Positions 40,241 through 47,371 of a DNA stretch of 64,000 nt are shown piece after piece (position 1 is the first letter of the stretch; the number at the start of each line of letters is the position of its first letter). The translations under genes and the position numbers were made by a program. Source of the stretch: Halorubellus sp. JP-L1. GTDB taxonomy: Archaea > Halobacteriota > Halobacteria > Halobacteriales > Natrialbaceae. The notes beneath the pieces were generated by a model. It searched no databases, had not been told where the DNA came from, and saw only the letters and a program-made list of their open reading frames with translations. The DNA is taken from positions 496,001 through 560,000 of the forward strand of contig NZ_JAAOIR010000001.1 of the NCBI RefSeq assembly GCF_011440375.1, read 5' to 3'.

Positions 40241-41359
40241 ATGGGAGCATCCGAATCGGTAACCAGAGGCAGAGAGCTCATCCTCGAGAAGCCGATGACA
40301 GCCGCGCTCGTCTTCATCGGCGTCGTCCTGCTGCTGGACATGCTACGCCAGCTCGTCACCGGTGACCTCGCCATCTCCGGCGTCATCGGCCTCGTCAAGG
40401 ACGGCCTCATGCGGGGGCTCGTCATCGGCCTGGCGGGCATCGGCCTCTCGATGACGTACAGCATCCTGAACTTCGCGAACTTCGCGCACGGTGACTACAT
40501 CACCGCCGGCGCGTTCTCCGGCTGGTCCGTAACGTACCTCATCGCCGGCGGATTCGGCGCCGAAGCGAACATCGGTTCGCTCGCGCTCGTCGGTGCAGGC
40601 GGCTCCGTCTTCGGTGGCGCGCTCGGCATCAACGTCGTCGACACGCCGATCGCAGTCCTCGTCGGGCTCCTGGTCGCCGGCGGACTCACCATCGGCCTCG
40701 CGCTGTTCATCGACCGGTTCATGTTCAAGCCGATACGCGACGCCGGCGGCATCCCGCTGCTCATCACGAGCATCGGCGTGGCGTTCGCGCTCCGGTACCT
40801 CATCCTGTTCGTGTTCGACTCGAGCACGCGCGGCACGACCGCCGCCGGGAGCGTCCCCGGCATCCGGCCGCTCGTCCTCGACGGTACCGTCCCGCTCACG
40901 CTCCACGACGGCTTCCTCGTCCTCGTCGCGGGCGGACTGATGCTCGGCGTGCACGTCCTCCTGCAGCGCACGAAGCTCGGGAAGGCGATGCGTGCGATGT
41001 CCGACGACGAATCGCTCGCCCGCATCACGGGCATCCCGACTGAGCGCGTCGTCCGCTCGACGTGGATCATCGGCGGCGGCCTCACCGGCATCGCGGGATA
41101 CATGTTCGTGCTCTGGAAGGGCACCCTGAGCTGGAACGACGGCTGGCTGCTGCTCCTGCTCATCTTCGCAGCGGTCATCCTCGGCGGCATCGGGTCCGTC
41201 TACGGCGCGATCCTCGGCGGCCTCGTCATCGGCCTCACGGCGTCGACGGCCGTCATCTGGATCCCGTCCGGGTTCGCGCGCGCTGCCGCGTTCGTCGTCA
41301 TGATCCTCGTCCTGGTCGTCCGTCCACAGGGGCTGTTCTCAGGGAGGTCGACAGCATGA
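40241..41359 (+). CDS. livH: Branched-chain-type amino-acid ABC transporter permease LivH
   Basis: 372 residues with about eight hydrophobic spans and the LivH motif 'LMRGLVIGLAGIGLSMTYSILNFANFAHGDYITAGAFSGW'. The C-terminal coupling region 'GTLSWNDGWLLLLLIFAAVILGGIGSVYGAILGGLVIGL' contacts the ATPase. Start chosen at the ATG at 40241 after a TATA-like sequence. First gene of livHMGF, with ATGA overlaps along the operon. Substrate is not certain: Leu/Ile/Val, glutamate or similar; the nearby glutamate-degrading operon is suggestive but not proof. Confidence 0.92.
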   Translation: MGASESVTRGRELILEKPMTAALVFIGVVLLLDMLRQLVTGDLAISGVIGLVKDGLMRGLVIGLAGIGLSMTYSILNFANFAHGDYITAGAFSGWSVTYLIAGGFGAEANIGSLALVGAGGSVFGGALGINVVDTPIAVLVGLLVAGGLTIGLALFIDRFMFKPIRDAGGIPLLITSIGVAFALRYLILFVFDSSTRGTTAAGSVPGIRPLVLDGTVPLTLHDGFLVLVAGGLMLGVHVLLQRTKLGKAMRAMSDDESLARITGIPTERVVRSTWIIGGGLTGIAGYMFVLWKGTLSWNDGWLLLLLIFAAVILGGIGSVYGAILGGLVIGLTASTAVIWIPSGFARAAAFVVMILVLVVRPQGLFSGRSTA

Positions 41360-42765
41360 GCGACACCGAAGACGGGGGTGGGTACGGGCAGTCCGAGGAG
41401 GAGCAGCGAGCCGTCGTCATGGGCATCGACTTCGGGAACGACTCGAACATGCTCATCACGCTCCTCGTCGGCGTGTTCGCGCTCTACCTGATCGGCGGCG
41501 TCGTCATCGGTCTCCCGTTCCGCGGGCTCATGAACCAGATCGGTCAGTTGACGTTCTGGATCGCGGTGTTCGCGATGGCGGCACTCGCCCTCAACCTCCA
41601 CTGGGGGTACACGGGCCTGTTCAACATCGGTATCGTCGGGTTCATGGCGACCGGCGTCTACATCACCGGCGTCCTCTCCAAGCCCGTGTTCGGGTCGGGG
41701 ACGAGCGCCGCCGAGGTCGGCGGCTTCGGACTGCCGCTGATCGTCGGGATCGCCGGCGGGATGGCCGCGGCAGCGATCCTCGGCCTCATCACTGCGCTGC
41801 CCGCACTCAGACTCCGCGCGGACTACCTCGCGATCGTCACGATCGCGCTCTCGGAGATCGTCCGGTTCTCACTGCTCTCGGACACCCTGAGCGGCGCGGA
41901 CGTCGCCGGCTACCGGGTCGGTCTCGGTGGCGGTGACGGCCTCATCCTCGACTACGGCGACCCGCTCGAGATCTTCGTTCGCACCCTGAGTTACCCGTTC
42001 GACTTCGTGTTCGGTCAATCCGGGTGGCTCTGGGAGGAGGTGTACATCAACGGGATCGTCGGGTTCGTCAGTAACTACATCCCGACGAATCCAAAGCCCG
42101 TCGTGGACAACTTCGCGTACGCCGCGTTCCTCCTGGTCGTCCTCGGCGGCTTCTACCTCCTCATCACGCGGATCGGGAGTTCGCCGTTCGGTCGCGTCCT
42201 GAAGGCGATCCGCGAGGACGAGGACGTGACGAACGCACTCGGGAAGAATACGAACGTCTTCAAGATCAAGTCGTTCATGGTCGGCTGTGCGCTCATGGGC
42301 CTCATCGGCATCCTCTGGTTCGGGACGCAGGGGTCGGTGACGCCGAACACGTTCCGGCCACGGATCACGTTCTACATCTGGATCGCACTCATCATCGGCG
42401 GTGCCGGGTCGAACACCGGGAGCGTCATGGGTGGCGCGATCTTCGCCGCGTTCCTCTTCCAGGGACCGCGGTACTTCAAGAACATCGTGGAGACGGTGCT
42501 CGGCAACCCGCCGGCACCGTCGAGCTTCGGGCAGGCGCTCCTCCCCATCAGCACGAGCGGGGACGTCTTCCCGCTGCTCATGTACACGCTGGACTCGATC
42601 CGGCAACTCCAGCTGTTCCTGATGGGCGCGGTCCTCATCGTCCTCATGCACCGGCGCCCCGACGGCTTGCTCGGTCATCGCAAGGAGGCCGCGGCGAGCA
42701 TCCCGCTCGGGCGGCCCGGGAAGAAGCAGAAAGAGGTCGCGACGGACGGAGGTGAAGAGCAGTGA
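41356..42765 (+). CDS. livM: Branched-chain-type amino-acid ABC transporter permease LivM
   Basis: 469 residues. A charged N-terminal tail (~30 residues) precedes about eight spans with the LivM pattern 'ALALNLHWGYTGLFNIGIVGFMATGVYITGVLS', the coupling helix 'GKNTNVFKIKSFMVGCALMGLIGILW', and 'IALIIGGAGSNTGSVMGGAIFAAFLF'. The insertion between spans ('VGLGGGDGLILDYGD...') is typical of archaeal members. ATG overlaps livH stop. Confidence 0.92.
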   Translation: MSDTEDGGGYGQSEEEQRAVVMGIDFGNDSNMLITLLVGVFALYLIGGVVIGLPFRGLMNQIGQLTFWIAVFAMAALALNLHWGYTGLFNIGIVGFMATGVYITGVLSKPVFGSGTSAAEVGGFGLPLIVGIAGGMAAAAILGLITALPALRLRADYLAIVTIALSEIVRFSLLSDTLSGADVAGYRVGLGGGDGLILDYGDPLEIFVRTLSYPFDFVFGQSGWLWEEVYINGIVGFVSNYIPTNPKPVVDNFAYAAFLLVVLGGFYLLITRIGSSPFGRVLKAIREDEDVTNALGKNTNVFKIKSFMVGCALMGLIGILWFGTQGSVTPNTFRPRITFYIWIALIIGGAGSNTGSVMGGAIFAAFLFQGPRYFKNIVETVLGNPPAPSSFGQALLPISTSGDVFPLLMYTLDSIRQLQLFLMGAVLIVLMHRRPDGLLGHRKEAAASIPLGRPGKKQKEVATDGGEEQ

Positions 42766-43634
42766 GCGACACCGAGTCCTCCGACGCGCCCGACGGCGAC
42801 GGTAGCGTGACGGTCCCGGACGCCGAGTCGGACGTCGAACTCGACGCCGCCTCAGGGACGGCGGACATGGCTGACGTCCCACTAAAGGTTCGGGACCTCC
42901 GGAAGACGTTCGGCGGCATCACCGCCGTCGACGGCGCCAGCTTCGAGATCGAGAAGGGCAGCATGACGGGTCTCATCGGGCCGAACGGTGCGGGGAAGTC
43001 GTCGACGTTCAACTGCATCACGGGCACGTACACGCCGGACTCCGGCGTCGTGGAGTTCAACGGCGAGGACATCACGGGGCTGGAGCCGTACGAGGTCGCC
43101 GAACGCGGCCTCGTGCGGACGTTCCAGATCGCACGCGAACTCTCGGAGATGACGGTCCTCGAGAACATGATGGTCGCGCCGATGCACCAGCGCGGCGAGT
43201 CGCTCTGGCGGTCGGTGTTCTCCAGGGACGACGTGAAGGCTCAGGAGTCGGAGATCCTCGAGCGCGCGTGGGACACGCTCGAGTTCTTCGACATCGAGCA
43301 CCTCGCGAACGAGTACGCGGGGAACCTCTCCGGCGGGCAACGGAAGCTCCTCGAGCTCGCGCGAGCGCTCTTGACGGACCCGGAGATGCTGCTGTTGGAC
43401 GAACCGTTCGCGGGCGTCAACCCCACGCTCGAGGAACGGCTGCTGGAGCACATCCACGAACTGCGGAACCAGGGGTACACGTTCCTCATCGTCGAGCACG
43501 ACATGGACCTCATCATGCAGAACTGCGAGAAAGTCATCGTGATGCACCAGGGTCGCATCCTCACGGAGGGGACGCCCGAGCACGTCCGGAACAACGAAGA
43601 CGTCATCGAGGCCTACCTCGGAGGTGAGGTATGA
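42762..43634 (+). CDS. livG: Branched-chain-type amino-acid ABC transporter ATPase LivG
   Basis: 290 residues; Walker A 'GPNGAGKSS', Q-loop region, signature 'LSGGQRKLLELARAL', Walker B 'MLLLDEPFAGVNP' and switch His 'IVEHDMDLI'. The first ~40 residues are an acidic extension before 'LKVRDLRKTFGG'. The start at GTG 42762 overlaps livM stop; an internal ATG closer to the domain is possible. It hydrolyses ATP to drive uptake together with LivF. Confidence 0.93.
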   Translation: MSDTESSDAPDGDGSVTVPDAESDVELDAASGTADMADVPLKVRDLRKTFGGITAVDGASFEIEKGSMTGLIGPNGAGKSSTFNCITGTYTPDSGVVEFNGEDITGLEPYEVAERGLVRTFQIARELSEMTVLENMMVAPMHQRGESLWRSVFSRDDVKAQESEILERAWDTLEFFDIEHLANEYAGNLSGGQRKLLELARALLTDPEMLLLDEPFAGVNPTLEERLLEHIHELRNQGYTFLIVEHDMDLIMQNCEKVIVMHQGRILTEGTPEHVRNNEDVIEAYLGGEV

Positions 43635-44455
43635 GCGACGACGCGACCGCGGACGCGACGGACCAGCCGGCGAACGCGAACGAGCCGGCGGGGTCGCCCG
43701 CGGACTCGACGTCCGGGACGAACGCGGCGACGGACGTCACGTTGTACGAGGACAGCATCCTCTCCGTTCGCAACCTGGACGCCGGCTACGGCGACCTCCA
43801 GATCCTCACGGACGTGGACCTGGACGTGAACGACGAGGAGTACGTCACGATCGTCGGCCCGAACGGCGCGGGGAAGTCGACGGTTATGAAGTCCGTGTTC
43901 GGGTTGACGAGCCACATGGGTGGAACCGTCCAGTTCCAGGGCGACGACATCACGGCGATGCGGCCGGAGAACATCATCCACCTGGGTCTCGGGTACGTCC
44001 CGCAGAACGACAACGTGTTCGGGACGCTGACGGTCCGCGAGAACCTGGAGATGGGCGCGTACATCCTCGACGAGGTCCCCCAGGACGCGCTCGAGGAGGT
44101 GTTCGAGCGCTTCCCGATCCTCGAGGAGCGCCAGACCCAGAAGGCGGGGACGCTCTCGGGCGGTCAACAGCAGATGCTCGCGATGGGGCGCGCGCTCATG
44201 CTCGACCCGGAGCTGCTCCTGCTCGACGAGCCGTCGGCCGGACTGGCGCCGGACCTGGTCGCGGAGATGTTCGACAAGATCGACGAGATCAACGAAGCCG
44301 GGACGGCGATCCTGATGGTCGAGCAGAACGCGAAGGAGGCACTCAGTCGCTGCGACCGCGGGTACGTGCTCGTCGACGGGAAGAACCGCTACGAGGACGA
44401 GGGGACGACGCTCCTGAACGACCCGCAGGTCCGCCAGGACTTCCTCGGCGGATAG
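43631..44455 (+). CDS. livF: Branched-chain-type amino-acid ABC transporter ATPase LivF
   Basis: 274 residues, with a ~40-residue acidic N-terminal extension then 'LSVRNLDAGYGDLQILTDVDLDVNDEEYVTIVGPNGAGKSTVMKSVFG'. Signature 'LSGGQQQMLAMGRALMLDPELLLLDEPSAGLAP' and 'ILMVEQNAKEAL' identify LivF. ATG overlaps the livG stop. The binding-protein gene of the set lies beyond a divergent surface-protein gene. Confidence 0.93.
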   Translation: MSDDATADATDQPANANEPAGSPADSTSGTNAATDVTLYEDSILSVRNLDAGYGDLQILTDVDLDVNDEEYVTIVGPNGAGKSTVMKSVFGLTSHMGGTVQFQGDDITAMRPENIIHLGLGYVPQNDNVFGTLTVRENLEMGAYILDEVPQDALEEVFERFPILEERQTQKAGTLSGGQQQMLAMGRALMLDPELLLLDEPSAGLAPDLVAEMFDKIDEINEAGTAILMVEQNAKEALSRCDRGYVLVDGKNRYEDEGTTLLNDPQVRQDFLGG

Positions 44456-44572: not shown

Positions 44573-45670
44573 TCAGTTCTCGACGATCGTCTCAGCTTCT
44601 TCGGTCGTCGTCTCTTCCTCAGTGGTCGTCTCTGCTTCTTCGGTCGTCGTCTCTTCCTCAGTGGTCGTCTCTGCTTCTTCGGTCGTCGTCTCTTCCTCAG
44701 TGGTCGTCTCTGCTTCTTCGGTCGTCGTTTCCTCCTCAGTGGTCGTCTCAGCTTCTTCGGTCGTCGTCTCTTCCTCAGTGGTCGTCTCGGCTTCCTCGGT
44801 GGTCGTTTCCTCCTCGGTCGTCGTCTCTGCGTCTTCGGTGGTCGTTTCCTCCTCGGTCGTCGTCTCGTTCGCCGGTTCGTCCTCGCCGGGAAGCTGGAGC
44901 GAGAAGGTGGCGTCTTCGGTGACGAGAACCTCGAACGGCGTCTCTGCGGGCGCATCCTCGACGTTCAGGTAGCCGACGGCGAACGCGGAGTACGCCTCGC
45001 CGGCGTCGAGGGAGACGTTGGCGGAGTAGACGACCGGTCCGTCGTCGGTCGCGGTCGCGGGCCGAATCTCGACCGTGTAGTTCCCCGCCGGCACGGCGAC
45101 GTAGTCAGAGCCGTTCTGGAACGTGACGTTGTCCGCGAGGACGACGCTCCCGTTCGCGGCCGTCACGTCGACCGCCGGAGCGTCCGGCGAGAGGTGGACG
45201 ACGCTGATCGCGCTCGTGTCGTTCGCGGGCGTGAACGCATCGTCCTGGTAGCGGACGGGCTCGAAGGACGTGTTCGCGCCCTCGCTAATCTCCCCGGACG
45301 CAGCGATCGTGGTCACGGTCCGCGGTTCGAACGCCACCTCGTCATCGAAGACGACCGTGCTCGCGTTCTCCGCGGCAACGATGCTCACGTTGTACGTCCC
45401 CGCCTGGAGTTCGAGGTACTCGCTGACCGTCCCGAACGAGACGTTCGACGCGACGGTCTCGTTCTCGACGCGCACGTCGACCGCCGGCGCGTCAGGCGAG
45501 GCGTGCAGCACGCGGACGAACGTCGAATCCTGGGTCTCGCCGACCTGCGTCACCTGGTTCGCGTCGGCGTTCGACGGCGCCGATGTCGTCGCGAACGCGA
45601 CGCTACTGCCGACGAGTCCGACGGCGATCAGTATGATCAGTAACTTCCGTGACGTTGGTGTCGATAGCAC
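44573..45670 (-). CDS. DUF4397 surface protein with Thr/Glu repeat tail, 365 aa
   Basis: A signal peptide ('KLLIILIAVGLVGSSVAFA') is followed by two DUF4397 domains (~45-150 and ~150-255), each with 'VxHxSPDAPAVDVxxxN' at the start and beta-strands with 'GTYNVSIVAA...' / 'GNYTVEIRPA...'. The final ~90 residues are seven copies of a 13-residue Thr/Glu unit. No C-terminal membrane segment is seen, so the protein is probably secreted or wall-associated. DUF4397 domains are extracellular, function unknown. It is on the opposite strand to livHMGF. Confidence 0.85.
   Translation of the reverse strand: MLSTPTSRKLLIILIAVGLVGSSVAFATTSAPSNADANQVTQVGETQDSTFVRVLHASPDAPAVDVRVENETVASNVSFGTVSEYLELQAGTYNVSIVAAENASTVVFDDEVAFEPRTVTTIAASGEISEGANTSFEPVRYQDDAFTPANDTSAISVVHLSPDAPAVDVTAANGSVVLADNVTFQNGSDYVAVPAGNYTVEIRPATATDDGPVVYSANVSLDAGEAYSAFAVGYLNVEDAPAETPFEVLVTEDATFSLQLPGEDEPANETTTEEETTTEDAETTTEEETTTEEAETTTEEETTTEEAETTTEEETTTEEAETTTEEETTTEEAETTTEEETTTEEAETTTEEETTTEEAETIVEN
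44591..44863 (-). repeat. Seven tandem 39-base repeats encoding TTTEEETTTEEAE
   Basis: In-frame 39-base units, six nearly identical at the protein level and the first with Asp instead of Glu. The last copies differ slightly in DNA, so some drift has occurred. Copy number could change by slippage without loss of frame. Confidence 0.85.
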
Positions 45671-46075
45671 ACGTACGACAGAGAACGGCGCTACCTTTGT
45701 TATAGAGCGATAAGGCGGACTCCGATTTCGAGCACTCCAGCATAAGTGACCGATACCAGAGATGCGGTGTAACGCCGTCTCGTGCGCCCGCGCCCCGCGG
45801 TCGAACGCGAGTCGGTAACGCGCCGTTCATTCCACCCTCACGAGGGATTTCGCTCAGCCACCAGTCCAGGGCTGCGACTATCTCGTCCGGACCGAACGGG
45901 CGAGTAACGCGACCGTATCGAGCCACGGTCCCTCGACAGCGACCGCTGATCCCTCGACAGCGACCGCACCTGAAGACTCGGGGCGTGCGAGGGCTGCGTA
46001 CTCGGCGAGGCCGTCGCTCCTGGAGACCAGCGGTCGAAAGAAGTACGGGATTCGGTGCGTCGAGTCGTCGCGCGT
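45671..46075. other. 405-base intergenic region
   Basis: No gene seen. A direct repeat TCCCTCGACAGCGACCGC occurs at 45929-45946 and 45950-45967. The DUF4397 promoter should lie at the left side. Nothing continues the binding-protein frame after its stop at 46076. Confidence 0.5.
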
Positions 46076-47371
46076 CTACTGCGAACTCATCGCGTCGCTG
46101 ACGACGGAACTGTACGAGGACTCGCCCTGGTTGAACGCGGTCTGACGGAAGACCTCGCCGTCGAACTCGTCCTCGAACACGCCCGAGAACCGCTCGGAGA
46201 GCTGCTGGCCGTAGTCGTTGTTGACGTACAGCGTCGAGCAGGTTTCGGCTTCGAGCTCCTCGGACGCGAGCTGGGCCATGACGCGACCCTGCAGGCGGTC
46301 CGAGGGCGCGGTCCGGAAGATGAAGTCGTTGTCCTCGAGGTTCGTCACGGACAGCGCGGTCGAGGATGGCGAACAGCCGACGATCTCGTTCGGGATGAGA
46401 ACCTCCTGGCTCACCGGGACGTTCACGCCGGAGGACGCCGTCCCACAGATGTAGGGGTACCCGGCGTTCACAAGGGAGTTCGCCGCGGAGACACCGGACT
46501 GGGAGTTCGTCTCCGTGTCCTCGAGTTGCGTGTCGACCGTGAGGTCGATGTCGGCGTCGTTCACCTGGATCGCGGGGATCTGTGCGGCGTTGATCATCGA
46601 TTCGCCCGTCGATGCGAGCGCGCCCGTCTCCGGCAGGAGGATTCCGACCATGATCTCGCGACCCATACCGCCGGGCATCTCGTCGGCCGACGGCCCGGCA
46701 CCGTCGGGGTTCGAGCCCTCGAAGTTCGAGGTTCCGGTCGTCTCCGTACCGCCGCCCTCGACGAACTCCCACGTCGCGTACGCGGCAGAAGCGGGGTCGC
46801 CGTTCTCGTCGAAGTTAGTCGAACTGGACGCTCCCTGGTAGTTGATGTTCTCGCCGTTCGCGGCCGCCTCGACGCCCTCGACGAAGTTGCCGGGGCCGAC
46901 CTCCATCCCGCCGGGGTTGCACACGTTCCGCATCTGGTCGCGGATCGCCGGCCCGGAGTTCTCGCCGGCTGCGGCGTTCGCGAGGATGCCGATCGCGGTC
47001 GAGTCGTACGACTGCGAGGAGAACACGCCGGGCGATTCGCCGTACTCGTCCTCGTACAGGCTCGTGTACGCTTCCTGGTTCGGGCCGCCCGCTGCCGGTG
47101 CGGTCCCGGTGATGTTGCTCATGTCGTTCCCGACCTGACCCGGGAGGTCGCCGTCGCGGAGGCCGTCCGGGATGAGGATGTCGGTGTCGTCGCTGTAGGA
47201 ACTGTAGTAGTCCCGGAACAGCTGGATGCCGTCCTCTGGGTAGCCGACGACCGTGAGCATGTCCGGACCACCGCCGCCGCCACCGAGCCCACCGATACAG
47301 CCGGCGGTGCTCGCGAGTCCAGCCGCTCCAATGCCACTCAGTACGTCACGTCTTCGCACGTTCCGTGCCAT
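46076..47371 (-). CDS. livJ: Branched-chain-type amino-acid-binding lipoprotein, halves in reversed order
   Basis: 431 residues. Tat-type lipoprotein signal 'RRRDVLSGIGAAGLASTAGC'. The following segment (36-205: 'PDMLTVVGYPEDGIQLFRDYYSSY', 'VFSSQSYDSTAIGILANAAAGENSG', 'NFDENGDPASAAYATWEF') is what the family normally has as its SECOND half. A Gly/Pro/Ser linker (206-238) then leads to the usual FIRST half (239-431: 'IMVGILLPETGALASTGESM', 'CGTASSGVNVPVS', 'FRTAPSDRLQGRVMAQLA', 'LYVNNDYGQQLSERF'). It ends exactly where the normal protein would continue into 'PDMLTVVGYP'. This is a circular permutation of a type I binding protein. It should deliver ligand to LivHMGF. Confidence 0.85.
   Translation of the reverse strand: MARNVRRRDVLSGIGAAGLASTAGCIGGLGGGGGGPDMLTVVGYPEDGIQLFRDYYSSYSDDTDILIPDGLRDGDLPGQVGNDMSNITGTAPAAGGPNQEAYTSLYEDEYGESPGVFSSQSYDSTAIGILANAAAGENSGPAIRDQMRNVCNPGGMEVGPGNFVEGVEAAANGENINYQGASSSTNFDENGDPASAAYATWEFVEGGGTETTGTSNFEGSNPDGAGPSADEMPGGMGREIMVGILLPETGALASTGESMINAAQIPAIQVNDADIDLTVDTQLEDTETNSQSGVSAANSLVNAGYPYICGTASSGVNVPVSQEVLIPNEIVGCSPSSTALSVTNLEDNDFIFRTAPSDRLQGRVMAQLASEELEAETCSTLYVNNDYGQQLSERFSGVFEDEFDGEVFRQTAFNQGESSYSSVVSDAMSSQ

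Follow-up and report, generated by a model that had tools for sequence, protein, structure and literature searches.

A Natural, Circularly Permuted LivJ-Type Binding Protein Beside livHMGF in Halobacteria and Its Probably Recurrent Rearrangement

The genome of Halorubellus sp. JP-L1 contains, next to the livHMGF importer genes, a gene for a LivJ-type substrate-binding lipoprotein whose two halves are swapped within one intact reading frame. The gene lies in a stretch of 64,000 nucleotides that we analyzed as a whole (the window; Table 1) and encodes, in this order, a Tat/lipobox signal, the old C-terminal half (B), a linker of about 19 residues and the old N-terminal half (A). We name this arrangement P1. 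In our judgment the product likely works as the type I substrate-binding lipoprotein of LivHMGF; its gene would have been circularly permuted recurrently and in situ, probably by duplication and trimming. Neither circular permutation nor LivJ is new in itself, and the case is of interest mainly because one orthologous gene seems to have been permuted repeatedly at its place.

Table 1. Features of the permuted gene and of the neighboring importer genes (positions in the window).
Feature	Position	Strand	Basis or remark
livH, BPD_transp_2 permease, presumed partner	40241..41359	+	synteny
livM, BPD_transp_2 permease, start approximate	41356..42765	+	synteny
livG, ABC ATPase with BCA_ABC_TP_C	42762..43634	+	synteny
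livF, ABC ATPase	43631..44455	+	synteny
Permuted LivJ-type substrate-binding lipoprotein gene, type P1	46076..47371	-	431 aa plus stop
Twin-arginine signal with lipobox, residues 1-25, RRRDVLSGIGAAGLASTAG-C25	47297..47371	-	sequence; kept in orthologues
Gly-rich tether, residues 26-35	47267..47296	-	sequence
Old C-terminal half (B), residues 36-218	46718..47266	-	Peripla_BP_6 profile from position 191; secondary structure
Linker between old C and N termini, residues 219-237	46661..46717	-	sequence; AlphaFold2 model
Old N-terminal half (A), residues 238-431	46079..46660	-	Peripla_BP_6 profile 2-189

The swap of the halves is directly visible in the profile alignment. Pfam Peripla_BP_6 (PF13458) matches the protein in two stretches that stand in reversed order, and the better of them, residues 240–430 against profile positions 2–189 of 343, reaches 83.7 bits at a cut-off of 31.7. 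The B half alone covers profile positions 191–311 with 24.5 bits. When the halves were swapped back in silico, a single match was obtained, in which residues 5–311 run along profile positions 2–311 with 103.6 bits. At the same time the best PDB match, which had included the old N-half only (1.1e-13), improved to 5.4e-17 and now spanned the join. A linear paralogue from the same genome aligns to residues 207–429 of the permuted protein and then directly to residues 35–198, with 36–37% identity. The score is above the curated cut-off, but the collinear N-to-C order of the profile is not kept. Because the two-stretch match is reversed, we regard the protein as a permuted relative of the Peripla_BP_6 family and not as a regular member. 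Homologous halves swapped, an intact frame and joined old termini are all present, as expected of a circularly permuted protein. The NCBIfam model for the high-affinity branched-chain amino-acid-binding protein (NF011933, PRK15404) has a curated cut-off of 477 bits and gives 55 bits for the permuted protein and 67 bits for a linear orthologue, so that both fall outside this subfamily.

The first 25 residues have the form of the Tat/lipobox signal of haloarchaeal lipoproteins. The B half then starts at residue 36 with PDMLTVVGYPEDG, and the A half starts at about residue 238 with EIMVGILLPETG and runs to the end of the protein at ...SYSSVVSDAMSSQ. An earlier note, made from the DNA alone, had proposed a circular permutation within one frame, with the signal followed by the second half from residue 36 and with a linker fusing the old C and N termini. 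The profile alignment, the linear paralogues and orthologues and the structure prediction all bear out the permutation; the B half indeed occupies residues 36–218, and the linker could be placed at residues 219–237. The alignment with normal LivJ is not collinear.

Structure prediction led to the same picture. AlphaFold2 gave a confident model of the permuted protein (mean pLDDT 85.5, pTM 0.82), in which the linker region is modeled at a pLDDT of about 80–95 and residues 1–33 stay below 50. The linear orthologue L095 was modeled with a mean pLDDT of 89.7 and a pTM of 0.87, and the two models have an identical list of secondary-structure elements, in rotated order. With Foldseek, the L095 model matches LivK from end to end (TM 0.79). 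The permuted model is matched to known structures only over residues of about 238–431 (Z 14.5, rmsd 2.1, 191 aligned), as expected of aligners that appear to be sequential; here the old N-half corresponds to the range 1–193 of 3ipc. For the ligand site we mapped candidate positions with the presumed residue numbers of LivJ. At the positions so aligned, S314, T338 and Y387 of the A half and D69 of the B half are invariant, and S313 (A half) and Y44 (B half) are nearly so.

The permuted gene is by no means restricted to one strain. At an E-value of 1e-107 or better, P1 is encoded in 167 of the 391 sampled Halobacteria genomes and in 33 of 86 genera, collinear with the gene of the window over the whole length. 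Named isolates of Haloferax, Halorubrum, Halorussus, Halostella, Halorubellus and other genera carry it. Relatives were also found at 25 public loci, 23 of which show the P1 order at full length; besides the genera just named, Haloarchaeobius, Halogeometricum, Halobellus and others are represented there. Comparison with five orthologues gave dN/dS values of 0.12–0.35 in both halves and mostly higher values in the linker; purifying selection acts on the permuted gene. Nothing was found in favor of an artefact of assembly or sequencing that would affect the junction of one genome only, and the conservation of the P1 junction refutes it: order, junction and end are the same in 167 of 391 genomes and many named isolates, and dN/dS lies well below 1 throughout both halves. 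We give this explanation practically no weight, and the conserved order excludes chance as well. Outside Halobacteria no permuted form was detected when 295 genomes of the phylum, Halobacteria among them, were sampled. A search of open-access literature yielded no ABC-transporter binding protein that is permuted in nature; subscription journals could hold such reports.

Among the fetched genes, three arrangements are present: P1 (B-A) in 74 cases, the linear order (A-B) in about 43 and a second permutant, P2 (A2-B-A1), in four. In P2 it is only the initial strand-helix unit of the linear form that has been relocated to the C-terminus. This form is found in two lineages, one consisting of the genomes G378 and G386 of the window's own family, the other of the metagenome genomes QS_4 and QS_8 together with G309. 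Counted per genome (n = 391), P1 without a close linear relative occurs in 124, both forms in 43, the linear form only in 134, P2 in three and none in 87, numbers that hold at the E-value cut-offs used. The P1, P2 and linear orthologues are roughly 50–75% identical. The new termini of P1 are situated in one and the same loop in all P1 groups; it connects the helix SYxSxLxxAL with the strand PDxLxVxGYP, and the site of the cut agrees within about two residues. The LivJ lobe borders and the 3ipc alignment assign the cut of P1 to lobe II and that of P2 to lobe I. In the main P1 clade the linker has the form NPDGxGPxADxxPGGxGR; the linkers of the other P1 groups look unrelated to it.

In all three arrangements the binding-protein gene and livHMGF face each other tail-to-tail. 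Genes for a CBS protein and a GTP cyclohydrolase III often adjoin the binding-protein gene, and pgk often flanks the locus at the opposite end. Because of this common syntenic place, P1, P2 and linear genes are positional orthologues. The earlier note had seen the gene of the window beside an intact livHMGF. The importer genes are indeed its neighbors, but the permuted gene is convergent with them and outside their operon, and a DUF4397 protein gene (44573–45670, minus strand) sits between it and livF. This DUF4397 protein ends in a C-terminal tract encoded by 39-nt repeats (ETTTEEAETTTEE units), and among the loci examined the only ones with its gene at this position are closely related to the window (L009, L033–L035).

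For the question of how often the permutation arose, we built a tree of 66 binding proteins with the halves placed in canonical order. It contains six arrangement changes, a number repeated in nearly all bootstrap trees (range 6–6): P1 appears at four positions, and P2 emerges twice from within P1. One clade for all permuted forms is rejected at a modest p of 0.019. Separate trees of the A half and the B half give a similar scattered picture with weaker support. A second tree, made from 1347 alignment columns of the neighboring LivH, LivM, LivG and LivF, tracks the transporter genes and not the binding protein. Here the P1 loci fall into three groups, and a single clade is rejected with p 3e-50. 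The main P1 group stands with the linear L094 and L095 (100/100), the P1 loci L075, L078 and L080 with the linear L092, L112 and L115 (100/99), and the P1 loci L076, L077 and L079 with the linear L105 (98/99); bootstrap support is 98–100% where each of the two minor groups joins its linear neighbors. The tree of the binding proteins agrees on the P1 groups. L068 shifts its position between the trees, and L077 either forms a P1 group of its own or joins L076 and L079, which leaves a fourth gain of P1 uncertain. Since the distant paralogues and the matched structures are linear, the simplest reading of the trees is that the permutation is not ancestral, and that P1 would have arisen at least three times, always by a cut in this one loop, and would have given rise to P2 on at least two occasions. 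The horizontal spread of one permuted allele was considered as well and was rejected: in the trees of the binding protein, of each half and of LivHMGF, P1 groups cluster with linear neighbors.

One could also think of a single early permutation in Halobacteria, with the interspersed linear forms explained as reversals or with recombination between paralogues having scattered the trait. The same loop is cut in every P1 lineage, as one origin would predict, and a tandem P1 pair, found in one genus, reads old N-half to old C-half over the intervening stretch, from which a linear gene could form anew. Nevertheless, we hold this history to be unlikely. One gain would need many reversals and is less parsimonious than three gains, the linear order is that of the distant paralogues and of the matched PDB relatives, the linkers of the P1 groups look unrelated, and A half, B half and LivHMGF genes concur on the scattered pattern. 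As to the route, recurrent permutation in situ is probably best fitted by permutation by duplication, a standard model of circular permutation (PMC3320104). A tandem duplication, followed by fusion and then by trimming at both ends, would yield the permuted genes at their place. Tandem P1 copies about 100 nt apart do exist at the locus in one genus, and in P2 about 2–3 residues are present at both termini, a weak sign. Fused tandem dimers or partial duplicates were not found in the fetched loci; decayed remnants of a second half were absent within 700 bp up- or downstream, except for the intact tandem copies at L066, and direct repeats at the ends of the permuted gene are short and weak. Gene fission with subsequent fusion of the halves in reverse order is the other of the two standard models (PMC3320104). 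We consider it improbable here, given that no gene for one half alone was seen in the fetched loci and that the 2–3 residues shared by the ends of P2 are, if weakly, what a trimmed duplicate would leave behind. The tandem pairs themselves are located at L066:5877-8692 (G123) and at G325:C1:890993-893629. Of the two L066 copies, one retains the lipobox cysteine, which is missing from the other (LMGSLQQDGG).

The probable mode of action of the permuted protein can be sketched as follows. After export by the Tat route it would probably receive a lipid at Cys25, which would hold it on the outer side of the membrane, and it should adopt the two-lobe clamp of linear LivJ with the old termini fused by the linker. 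Since the candidate ligand site is built from both halves, we infer that an amino-acid-type ligand would be caught in the clamp and passed on to LivHM. The P1 permutation would move the lipid anchor from lobe I to lobe II. Several members, permuted as well as linear (L050, L071, L066:5877-7205, L101 and L106), have a twin-arginine-like signal without the lipobox cysteine and are therefore possibly released instead of tethered. Such members, together with the convergent position outside the livHMGF operon, would also suit a sensor or a scavenging surface protein that is merely next to livHMGF and no longer a subunit of the transporter. We regard this role as rather improbable, given that the linear orthologues hold the same convergent place, that the candidate ligand-site positions are conserved and that no close linear copy which might replace it at the transporter is present in the same genome (at E 1e-85). 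For the likely role as the binding protein of LivHMGF, one may speculate, with considerable doubt, about an advantage: the recurrent convergent permutation, at least three times in one loop and twice at a second site, could be an adaptive switch in which the change of the tethered lobe alters the docking to the importer.

With linear LivJ and LivK (PF13458; PDB 3td9, 4n0q, 4gnr, 1z15, 2lbp) the permuted protein shares the family, the predicted fold, the conserved candidate ligand-site positions and the livHMGF neighbors; it differs by the swapped halves, the linker at the old termini and the location of the new termini, which is lobe II. Circular permutation in nature is usually known from single pairs of distantly related proteins. 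In our case, in contrast to the natural permutants saposin/swaposin and the DNA methyltransferases, which show the same kind of rearrangement with duplication and trimming as the likely route (PMC3320104), the linear form and two permutants are orthologous at one locus, and the cut recurs across lineages. That a periplasmic binding protein can stay functional when permuted is known from the engineered biosensor cpGltI (PMC6335823), which is man-made and derived from a different binding protein, whereas the permutant of the window is natural and widespread. The linear, P1 and P2 orthologues, from genera including the laboratory genus Haloferax, are a natural experiment on how much re-wiring a protein tolerates. 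They allow one to ask where a cut is tolerated, whether there are intermediates and whether the position of the lipid anchor makes a difference for ABC import. For practical work it matters that profile-based annotation and collinear alignments drop about half of each such permuted protein.

Some smaller observations concern individual genes. Just downstream of the permuted gene of the window there is an exact 18-nt direct repeat (45929–45946 and 45950–45967). The P1 member L075 (G068:C1:2821300-2822610) has one in-frame TAG inside the matched stretch. Finally, the linear members L084, L085, L088 and L089 of the f8 genomes carry long low-complexity Gly/Ser/Glu/Thr tracts at both ends, which were not seen in the other linear members.
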